In this document: positions 42,868 through 45,971 of the stretch, piece after piece
Layout: each line of letters opens with the position of its first letter
Numbering within the stretch: the stretch's first letter is position 1
From: an uncultured Saprospiraceae bacterium
GTDB lineage: Bacteria; Bacteroidota; Bacteroidia; Chitinophagales; Saprospiraceae
Reading direction: 5' to 3'
Length of the DNA stretch: 46,946 nt
NCBI GenBank assembly: GCA_938015925.1
Contig: CALLVY010000005.1
Span: 1 to 46,946, forward strand
Translations under genes and position numbers: made by a program
Notes under the pieces: generated by a model
Databases searched by the model: none
What the model saw: the letters and a program-made list of their open reading frames with translations, nothing else
What the model was told of the DNA's origin: nothing

Positions 42868-43521
42868 CTACCCACAAGCCCAAAAAAAGCGAAAATCAAA
42901 CTCATCCTTCGCCGGAGCACCAAAATAAACTTCCTCCAACCAATCCTGCTCCGCAATAAACAGATTCCCAGTAGAAACCGTAACCAAAAGAAAAGGATTT
43001 TTCTTGGCATGTTTCTTCAGTCGTTTCAGCGCTTTGGGAAGGACATAAGGGAAAAAAGAATTCATGATGCAAATACAATCTACGACAGGCAAGGCATCTT
43101 TCTTTTTGGTAGCATCTCCTTGAAAACATTGTACCGAATCTAAACCCAGTTTTTTTATCCATTTATTAGTGGCCTTCACTCTCTGTGGAATCATTTCCAC
43201 CCCATAAAAATCGACCTCTTCCCAAAGTAGGGCACCATAAAAAAGAACCCGACCACAACCGCTACCCAAGTCCAAAATTTTTTCGGGCCGGTAGGGTTCC
43301 AGTTTTTCAAACAATCTATGGATGTAAAAATAAGGATTGTCGCCCTGATAGATTCGGTGCTTTACTCCGTATTGACGTACGAGTTCAGGTAGTGGGATTT
43401 TGTCCTCCACTTTTTCGATTTGTATACCCAGAAGTGCATCCATCACATCATCTTCCGGCAACTTTCCTTTTCGATGAATTTTCCTTAGGGTCTTAGCAAT
43501 CTTTTTCGCTTTTTTATTCAT
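42868..43521 (-). CDS. Class I SAM-dependent methyltransferase, overlapping the maturase stop
   Basis: Likely start ATG 43521 (MNKKAKKIAKTLRKIHRKG) within ORF 42868-43554. Motif I KILDLGSGCGRVLFYGALL, acidic loop DFYGVEM, VVDCICIMNSFFPYVLPKALKRLKKHA. Confidence 0.85.
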   Translation of the reverse strand: MNKKAKKIAKTLRKIHRKGKLPEDDVMDALLGIQIEKVEDKIPLPELVRQYGVKHRIYQGDNPYFYIHRLFEKLEPYRPEKILDLGSGCGRVLFYGALLWEEVDFYGVEMIPQRVKATNKWIKKLGLDSVQCFQGDATKKKDALPVVDCICIMNSFFPYVLPKALKRLKKHAKKNPFLLVTVSTGNLFIAEQDWLEEVYFGAPAKDEFDFRFFWACG

Positions 43522-45016
43522 CGTCCATTCCCATTTCTTCGATTGGGAATTCACTGAATACTTTTTCTAAAAGATTGATGGCCTCCTTGCGTTTTTCCAA
43601 ACTGATTTCATAATCTGTTTTGGCTATTTCCGTATCCGCACCACAATGGGGGCAATCTTTTTCATTGTGCAATAGAAATTGATTGCAGGATCGACATTGT
43701 TCCATTAAGTCAGGGACCTTTCCAAATTCAGGTGATTTTTCGCCTTCCATCCCGCTGATTGGCTTGACGAGTAAGTCGTGAATCTGGTCTTCAGAAGTGG
43801 ATATTTGCCGGCCTTTGGCTTGGCTTGGATCGGCTGGAATTTCTTCGAGAATCAATTCAAATCTGCCGATGTCAAAAGAACCACATCCTGCTTCTTCGAC
43901 CTTCTGAATTCTTTCGCGGAGTCCATCCTTTTTGAGTTCGGATACCCGGTAGTGGCAATAGGGATTATTGCCAGGTCTGCCAAGGAGAGAATGAGAAGTC
44001 CAGGTACAACCCGCTTTGCACACATCGGCATAATAGCAGGTTTTGCAAAATCCCCAGAGACTGTCTCTGGATCGCAATCTACCAAAATGGATTTCAGGAC
44101 TCTTGGTCCAAATTTCTTCTATACTAAGGTCTTTTACATTACCTCCGGTATAGCCATTGGTCGGCAAAGAAGGGCAGCCCTTAACGGCTCCATCTGCTTC
44201 GATGCCTATGACTGTTTGGCCAGCACTACAACCCGTCCAGTGAATGTTGACGCCAGTGATATTTCGAAGCTTATATTCATAAGGTCCAAAATAGCCGATA
44301 TTGTTGCCGATGACCATGGTTAGGCCCATTTCATTGCCTTCGTCAAAAAGTTCAGCCAGTAGAGGGAATAGCGTGTCGAGCTGGTGAGGCTGGAGCAATA
44401 ATTCGTCATTGTCAACGGCATTGCCCATGGCGACGGTCAATTGTAATTGCCATTGTTCGGCTCCGGCTGCTACGATGGTATACATGAGTTCGCGGAGTTG
44501 TGGAATGGTTGCAGGGCCAATCTGGGTATTGACAGAGCCATTGAGTCCGGCTGCTCTGGCGCGTTTGAGTACATCCAGCGCCATGTCGAAAGAACCTTTG
44601 ACGCCTCGGACATTGTCATGCAATTCGGCGAGGCCATCGATAGAAACACCAAGTCCCTGGAGGCCGGCATCAAGGGCTGCTTCGAGCCTTTTGGCATTGA
44701 AAGCCCATCCACCAGTTTGCAAGCCACAATAAATGTCGTGGTCGCGCAAAGCCCGGATGATGCGAGTCCAATCGCTTTTTAAAAAAGCTTCACCACCGAT
44801 TAGGGTAACTTCGCGAGTGCCCAAACGAGCCAGTCCTTCAACGATTTCTAAACAATCTTCCGTGCTTAATTCGTCGGGTCTTATCTTTCCTGCTCTGGAG
44901 CCACAATGTTTGCATTTGAGGTTACAGGCGAGTGTCAATTCCCAGACCACATGCACAGGAATATGGTTAAGATGGTCGTCTTGACTTCTCGATCGGACAG
45001 GTGTATTTTCTGTCAT
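43514..45016 (-). CDS. Radical SAM/SPASM peptide maturase-like protein with C-terminal zinc-ribbon-like tail
   Basis: 500 aa. WELTLACNLKCKHCGS (CxxxCxxC), TLIGGEAFL, SPASM cysteines GCSAGQ...KGCPS...GFCKTCYYADVCKAGCTW...PYCHYR, tail CRSCNQFLLHNEKDCPHCG. Confidence 0.93.
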   Translation of the reverse strand: MTENTPVRSRSQDDHLNHIPVHVVWELTLACNLKCKHCGSRAGKIRPDELSTEDCLEIVEGLARLGTREVTLIGGEAFLKSDWTRIIRALRDHDIYCGLQTGGWAFNAKRLEAALDAGLQGLGVSIDGLAELHDNVRGVKGSFDMALDVLKRARAAGLNGSVNTQIGPATIPQLRELMYTIVAAGAEQWQLQLTVAMGNAVDNDELLLQPHQLDTLFPLLAELFDEGNEMGLTMVIGNNIGYFGPYEYKLRNITGVNIHWTGCSAGQTVIGIEADGAVKGCPSLPTNGYTGGNVKDLSIEEIWTKSPEIHFGRLRSRDSLWGFCKTCYYADVCKAGCTWTSHSLLGRPGNNPYCHYRVSELKKDGLRERIQKVEEAGCGSFDIGRFELILEEIPADPSQAKGRQISTSEDQIHDLLVKPISGMEGEKSPEFGKVPDLMEQCRSCNQFLLHNEKDCPHCGADTEIAKTDYEISLEKRKEAINLLEKVFSEFPIEEMGMDDE

Positions 45017-45036
45017 AATAAATGGTTAGTTGTCAG

Positions 45037-45051
45037 AACGTCGCAGACGTT
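45037..45051 (-). promoter_or_regulatory. Intercistronic stem-loop AACGTC-tgc-GACGTT between last small-peptide gene and maturase gene
   Basis: Perfect 6-bp stem in the 80-nt gap; no U tract after it. Confidence 0.5.
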
Positions 45052-45096
45052 ACTGTGTTTGGAATTTCTATTAAGGAGGCTTGACTTGTCTGGTGT

Positions 45097-45312
45097 TTAT
45101 TTTTTGCGTTTGCTTTTGCTCTTTCTTTTGATTTTCTTTGGTTTTGCGGCTTCTACTTTTGCGATTTCCAAATTGAGGACTTCCAAAGCAGCTGAAACAT
45201 TACCGTGTTGAGCCAACCATTTTTCAGATACTTTGAGCATGGCTTTCATTTCTTTAAGATTGCCGGTGGCTGCAGCATTGTGAATGGCAACTCCGTAGGG
45301 TACTACTGGCAT
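45097..45312 (-). CDS. Small DUF1843-like peptide P1 (candidate maturase substrate) with Lys/Arg-rich tail
   Basis: MPVVPYGVAIHNAAATGNLKEMKAMLKVSEKWLAQHGNVSAALEVLNLEIAKVEAAKPKKIKRKSKSKRKK. Start at 45312 (or 45318). Confidence 0.85.
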   Translation of the reverse strand: MPVVPYGVAIHNAAATGNLKEMKAMLKVSEKWLAQHGNVSAALEVLNLEIAKVEAAKPKKIKRKSKSKRKK

Positions 45313-45457
45313 GAGCATTTGTTTTTAGGCTCTGCTTTTTGGGCAGATGGGGTTAAAAAAAAGAAGAAACCTGATTGACGTTTTTCTAAACGGAGACAGA
45401 AGGGAAAAGTGATTCAGGAAAATTCGCAAACAGGTTTCGACTATTAGGAGCAATTTA

Positions 45458-45673
45458 TCATTTTTTGCTTTTACGTTTAGTTTTAGTTTTTCTTCTAGGT
45501 TTAGAGAGGGCTTCTGCTTTTGCAATTTCGAGGTTGAGTAACTCTAAGGCAGCAGAAACATTGCCATGTTGCTCCAGCCATTTCTCCGCTTTTTTAAGCG
45601 TGGATTTCATCTGTTTTAGATTACCAGTTGCGGCGGCGTTATGAATCGCAACACCATATAATACGATTGCCAT
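45458..45673 (-). CDS. Small DUF1843-like peptide P2 (candidate maturase substrate) with Lys/Arg-rich tail
   Basis: MAIVLYGVAIHNAAATGNLKQMKSTLKKAEKWLEQHGNVSAALELLNLEIAKAEALSKPRRKTKTKRKSKK. Start at 45673, agreeing with P1 and P3. Confidence 0.87.
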   Translation of the reverse strand: MAIVLYGVAIHNAAATGNLKQMKSTLKKAEKWLEQHGNVSAALELLNLEIAKAEALSKPRRKTKTKRKSKK

Positions 45674-45794
45674 AATTTTGTTTTTTAGGTTTAAAAAATA
45701 GAGCATTAAAAGTCTGGTTCAAAAATGAATTTGAACGAGTTGTTACGCAAGAAAAAGAAGCGTAAACTTAAAGCATAAGAAAAGAAGTGAAAGT

Positions 45795-45971
45795 TAGGTA
45801 CGAGCTTCTAACTTAGCAATTTCTTGCTTGAGAATTTCTACTGCTCCGGAAACGTTGCCGTGTTCTTTTAGCCATTTTTCAGCTTGCTTTTTTAGGGCTT
45901 TCATTTTGCGGATATCGCCAGAAGCGACGGTTTTGTGAATGGAGGTTGCGTAAAGAGGAACTACTGCCATG
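45795..45971 (-). CDS. Small DUF1843-like peptide P3 (candidate maturase substrate), 58 aa, no basic tail; absent from supplied ORF track
   Basis: Own translation: MAVVPLYATSIHKTVASGDIRKMKALKKQAEKWLKEHGNVSGAVEILKQEIAKLEART*. ATG 45971, stop 45795-45797. Clear paralogue of P1/P2. Confidence 0.88.

Follow-up and report, generated by a model that had tools for sequence, protein, structure and literature searches.

Tyramine excision at an XYG site is known from the splicease PlpX, which acts on tags such as IRPLYGLPI with a mass change of −135.0757 Da (PMC10533398; PMC11002830), and beta-residues of the ketoamide kind make other products inhibitors of proteases (PMC10373908). The spliceotide systems (PlpX/PlpY) have precursors of the Nif11 or NHLP type. 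Another named family, TIGR03913/DUF1843, is represented in Pseudomonas, Burkholderia and Chromobacterium, where a maturase above the TIGR03913 cut-off has DUF1843 domains directly upstream, usually three. In Burkholderia thailandensis, strong induction at stationary phase is seen for DUF1842/DUF1843 genes among others (PMC12322963), and in Chromobacterium these genes are induced under quorum sensing with the maturase gene co-expressed (PMC12114271). No published reaction for TIGR03913 was found, and the accessible portions of the DUF1843 literature make no mention of splicing; Scott et al. 2022 (Chem), which lay outside the search, may already cover DUF1843 proteins.

Judged by its sequence, an operon of an uncultured Saprospiraceae bacterium (contig CALLVY010000005.1, analyzed over 46,946 nucleotides, the window) is a member of this already named TIGR03913/DUF1843 (PF08898) family and has the same arrangement, but its peptides are all short and stand-alone, without DUF1842 fusions, and a methyltransferase gene is added. 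With the spliceotide systems it shares an enzyme that is next of kin to the Nif11-linked family TIGR04103, and [L/M/P]-Tyr-Gly is common to the substrates on both sides. In contrast to those systems, the window maturase falls below the TIGR04103 cut-off and bears a C-terminal zinc ribbon, the operon has no PlpY-like RRE gene, and the putative substrates lack Nif11 or NHLP leaders and use X-Y-A as well.

Operon organization

All five open reading frames of the preliminary description are present in the window, co-directional on the minus strand: P3 (45794..45970, 58 aa, beginning MAVVPLYATSIH), P2 (45458..45673, 71 aa), P1 (45097..45312, 71 aa), a radical SAM/SPASM maturase (43514..45016, 500 aa) and a class I SAM methyltransferase (42868..43521, Pfam Methyltransf_31/25). 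The coordinates first given for P2 and P1 were exact, while those for P3 (45971-45795) were off by one base; an in-frame ATG at 45318 is a possible alternative start for P1. A single operon is likely, since the maturase stop and the methyltransferase ATG overlap by 8 nt and the other intergenic gaps, of 120, 145 and 80 nt, are short enough to fit. Scans for a promoter and a terminator of this operon gave nothing above the shuffled-sequence level.

The three peptides had been called DUF1843-like, and the PF08898 profile places them in that family far beyond chance, with 68.8 (P1), 73.8 (P2) and 75.7 bits (P3) against a cut-off of 23.3. DUF1843 is the sole family above its cut-off in P1-P3, and a Nif11 match is absent. 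None of the three contains Cys, so thioether chemistry of the sactipeptide or ranthipeptide type is ruled out for them. P2 is modeled, at moderate confidence, as a bundle-forming length of three helices preceded by residues 1-5, which belong to no helix; Tyr6 begins the first helix. Lys/Arg-rich tails end P1 (45097-45150), P2 (45458-45505) and the peptide of a related locus (L064 3065-3274); P3 is without one.

Conservation of the DUF1843 peptides

A homologue search with the window maturase yielded 80 relatives, and DUF1843 loci numbered 66 when the window, L148 and L149 are included. In these 66 loci the DUF1843 domains lie nearly always directly upstream of the maturase, often as three. The preliminary description had paired DUF1843 peptides with a dedicated radical SAM/SPASM maturase and had let this reading depend on their co-occurrence beside close maturase homologues; that co-occurrence was found, so the pairing is supported and not refuted. 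In the Pseudomonas and Burkholderia-type loci most DUF1843 copies terminate proteins of ~200 aa (the one that was checked with Pfam, in L010, is a DUF1842 fusion), and in Undibacterium and Lysobacter loci there are several X-Y-(G/A) repeats per protein.

Among 52 non-redundant DUF1843 domains drawn from the 66 loci (dereplicated at 70% identity), a Tyr at the domain start occupies the only column that is always filled and never varies (52/52). It is preceded by L, P or M and followed by G in 34 domains, A in 17 and M in 1; X-Y-A is therefore found at about a third of the sites, P3 included. A 28-row alignment has only M1 and Y6 invariant. Aligned with this column are P-Y-G in P1 (45292..45300), L-Y-G in P2 (45653..45661) and L-Y-A in P3 (45947..45955), all on the minus strand, and this conservation suggests that the likely place of modification is the conserved Tyr in X-Tyr-(Gly/Ala) near the N-terminus, not the GDL motif. 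The GDL positions vary (D/N/S, L/V/A) whereas the Tyr is fixed, and the motif was rejected as the reaction site. Its D position is D in 37 and N in 9 of the 52 domains, so that P1-P3, which had been regarded as divergent members for their GNL and GDI, are ordinary ones. Six loci gave no YG match above threshold, one being truncated and two having a weak PYG match.

Pro precedes the Tyr at 18 YG sites and at no YA site; where another residue stands before the Tyr, 17 sites are YG and 18 are YA (Fisher p 0.0001). This count spans the DUF1843 sites in L008-L072, L079, L148 and L149 and uses a 53-domain set whose filter differs slightly from that of the 52-domain set. The Pro-Tyr-Gly pairing suggests coupled constraints on the site.

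Relationships of the maturase

The preliminary description had pointed to maturases annotated as associated with GDL-motif peptides, and the window maturase scores 691.9 bits on TIGR03913, above the cut-off of 591.75. Its second-best NCBIfam family is TIGR04103 (420.3 bits, below the cut-off of 725), and a TIGR04103 member (L082) in turn scores 425 bits on TIGR03913, each family being next best for the other. Intermediate maturases score roughly 390-580 bits on one of the two profiles and 435-655 on the other. The maturases of L082 and L086 exceed the TIGR04103 cut-off and adjoin precursors such as DIRPLYGVVIW, that of L082 with a Nif11 domain. In a quick IQ-TREE analysis the Nif11-adjacent TIGR04103 maturases nest in the DUF1843/XYG assemblage (21-row branch, support 97), in a tree whose root is unsure because the outgroup branches are long. 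Across TIGR03913, TIGR04103 and the intermediates 81 columns are near-invariant, among them those of three cysteines of the radical-SAM motif and seven of the SPASM domain, and many of the 81 are missing from the outgroups. The CxxxCxxC cluster motif (C31, C35, C38; 44903..44926, minus strand) is invariant in A1 and in all groups compared; the SPASM cysteines (C263, C281, C324, C327, C333, C337, C354; 43955..44230, minus strand) are invariant across both types and the intermediates. The best structural matches of the AlphaFold model (mean pLDDT 82) are SkfB, PqqE and SuiB.

TIGR04103 is a family that we take to be that of the splicease PlpX. We infer this from Nif11 precursors with IRPLYG-type cores and from the subclass IPR026482 quoted in a review (PMC11002830). 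When 386 genomes from the phylum of G120 were searched with a degenerate DNA pattern representing a PlpA-like core, there was no match, and the search gave no direct confirmation that PlpX belongs to TIGR04103.

Relatives without DUF1843 (n = 17) have a small YG-bearing neighbor in 13 cases, mostly near the maturase and in one case ~5 kb away, the motifs (ALYGVF, RPMYGVF, RPLYGVV, IMYGPA) lying in unrelated small proteins. In these selected proteins there is one [LMP]YG for every 95 aa, in background genes one for every 3576 aa, a ratio that is inflated because most of the proteins were chosen for carrying YG, the Nif11 precursors being the less biased part.

The four cysteines of the C-terminal zinc ribbon (CxxC...CxxC, C441-C458; 43643..43696, minus strand), which is followed by a long helix, occur in 14/14 TIGR03913-type maturases compared and are absent in the TIGR04103-type and intermediate enzymes. 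The myxobacterial relatives (L077, L078, L083, L085) resemble the window in having a related maturase and YG in small neighbors, but their zinc ribbon is on the substrate and not on the enzyme: in several of them CxxC...CxxC is found on the neighboring small YG protein (L077 9132-9596; L078 7378-9606). We read the ribbon as a putative recognition module able to sit on either enzyme or substrate. Beside the maturase relative there are more than ten tandem small proteins in L085 (7753-12996) and three in L083 (9173-10303). All of them combine CxxC...CxxC at the N-terminus with a hydrophobic stretch and a YG site, and they usually finish in a metal-binding part resembling MopE, for which the one tested matches PF11617.

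The methyltransferase

Homologues of the methyltransferase lie near TIGR03913-type maturases of several phyla (L008, L064, L066, L071, L148 and L149), directly downstream of the maturase in L008, L148 and L149, and with the window the gene is present in 7/66 DUF1843 loci. At E 1e-12 there is a partial match in one of 60 other genomes of the same family and one further partial match elsewhere in its own genome, and together with the homologues near other maturases this makes the enzyme look dedicated but optional. The methyltransferase thus counts as a recurrent accessory; as a core part of the system it was rejected on the count of loci. Its best PDB match, a protein-isoaspartate methyltransferase, is too weak for a substrate assignment. 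The enzyme may be linked to short peptide N-termini, since all seven loci have these only (Fisher p 0.04, for loci that are related and with a nearest-ATG measure that overcalls). In these loci the DUF1843 Tyr is always within seven residues of Met.

Proposed reaction and alternatives

We consider it somewhat probable that the five genes form a protein-modification operon in which the maturase performs a splicing-type excision (tyramine, −135.08 Da) at the invariant Tyr of the DUF1843 peptides. The maturase would bind the peptide through its helical part, perhaps helped by the C-terminal zinc ribbon, and its 5'-deoxyadenosyl radical would act on that Tyr within the N-terminal X-Tyr-(Gly/Ala). 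Tyramine would then be excised from the backbone, leaving a ketoamide and a mass loss of 135.08 Da. Since the operon has no export or leader-protease gene, the products would probably be small intracellular ketoamide proteins, for which protease inhibition is a possible role; the methyltransferase would be accessory and may modify the same peptides. A splicing-type loss is predicted on account of the intermediate maturases, the 81 near-invariant columns and the YG in small neighbors of the DUF1843-less relatives. Given the enzyme's kinship to TIGR04103 and the site that both have in common, TIGR03913 is best guessed to catalyze this reaction too, though such kinship is not proof of an identical reaction. 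Counting against it are the X-Y-A sites, the six loci with no YG match above threshold, the operon's want of a PlpY-like gene, the leaderless substrates and the TIGR04103 score below cut-off. Excision of a Tyr core from the backbone, most likely the reaction here, is a known but unusual chemistry that would be new for this family. A broader view, which we hold only tentatively, makes TIGR03913 a second, widespread splicease branch that would place ketoamides in folded, leaderless intracellular proteins, accept X-Tyr-Ala too, use a movable zinc-ribbon recognition module and include a methyltransferase step in a subset; splicing at XYA is undocumented in the portions of the literature examined.

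That the maturase uses X-Tyr-(Gly/Ala) for another Tyr radical chemistry, such as C-C or ether crosslinking, decarboxylation or epimerization, is unlikely, although the Tyr is fixed while X-Y-A is common, and SPASM enzymes of similar fold, the solved structures closest to this one among them, vary in chemistry. It has to be set against the fact that the closest family is linked to the splicease PlpX and that the substrates share the XYG context and no other residue. An unspecified −2 Da modification at or near GDL, with methylation as a core step, appears quite improbable: the variable GDL positions and the 59/66 DUF1843 loci without a methyltransferase outweigh what the TIGR03913 family name and the close linkage of the two enzyme genes would suggest. 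The −2 Da shift foreseen in the preliminary description is superseded by the predicted −135.08 Da, the nearest family being the one linked to PlpX. Paralogue-rich operons made others propose self-assembly, and DUF1843 was found fused to DUF1842 (PMC10994174); on this view the DUF1843 proteins would be structural or assembly proteins and the substrate of the maturase something else. In the same report, the crystallized DUF1842-DUF1843 protein is described as likely monomeric with no assembly observed (PMC10994174). A substrate role also agrees better with how closely DUF1843 is linked to TIGR03913 and with conservation of one residue only, and we regard this explanation as very improbable.

For a family with no published reaction found, tyramine excision predicts one mass shift at one defined residue and is open to a one-experiment test. 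If true, there could be spliceases for folded proteins at new sites, which could help to place reactive ketoamides.

Distribution and origin

Compared with the described TIGR03913/DUF1843 systems, the window operon is found in one of 120 genomes of its own GTDB family: both TIGR03913 above cut-off and DUF1843 occur there in its own genome only, and a sampled congeneric genome has neither. DUF1843 is above cut-off in 8/395 genomes of the phylum, namely its own, two with the small-peptide loci L148 and L149, which are from another family of the same class, and five others with single weak matches inside long frames. The operon was probably acquired horizontally, as is suggested by its rarity in the family, by the G+C content of the maturase gene (47% versus 37% in the rest of the window) and by the nearest sampled maturase relatives by tree path, which are cyanobacterial (Calothrix, Oscillatoria).
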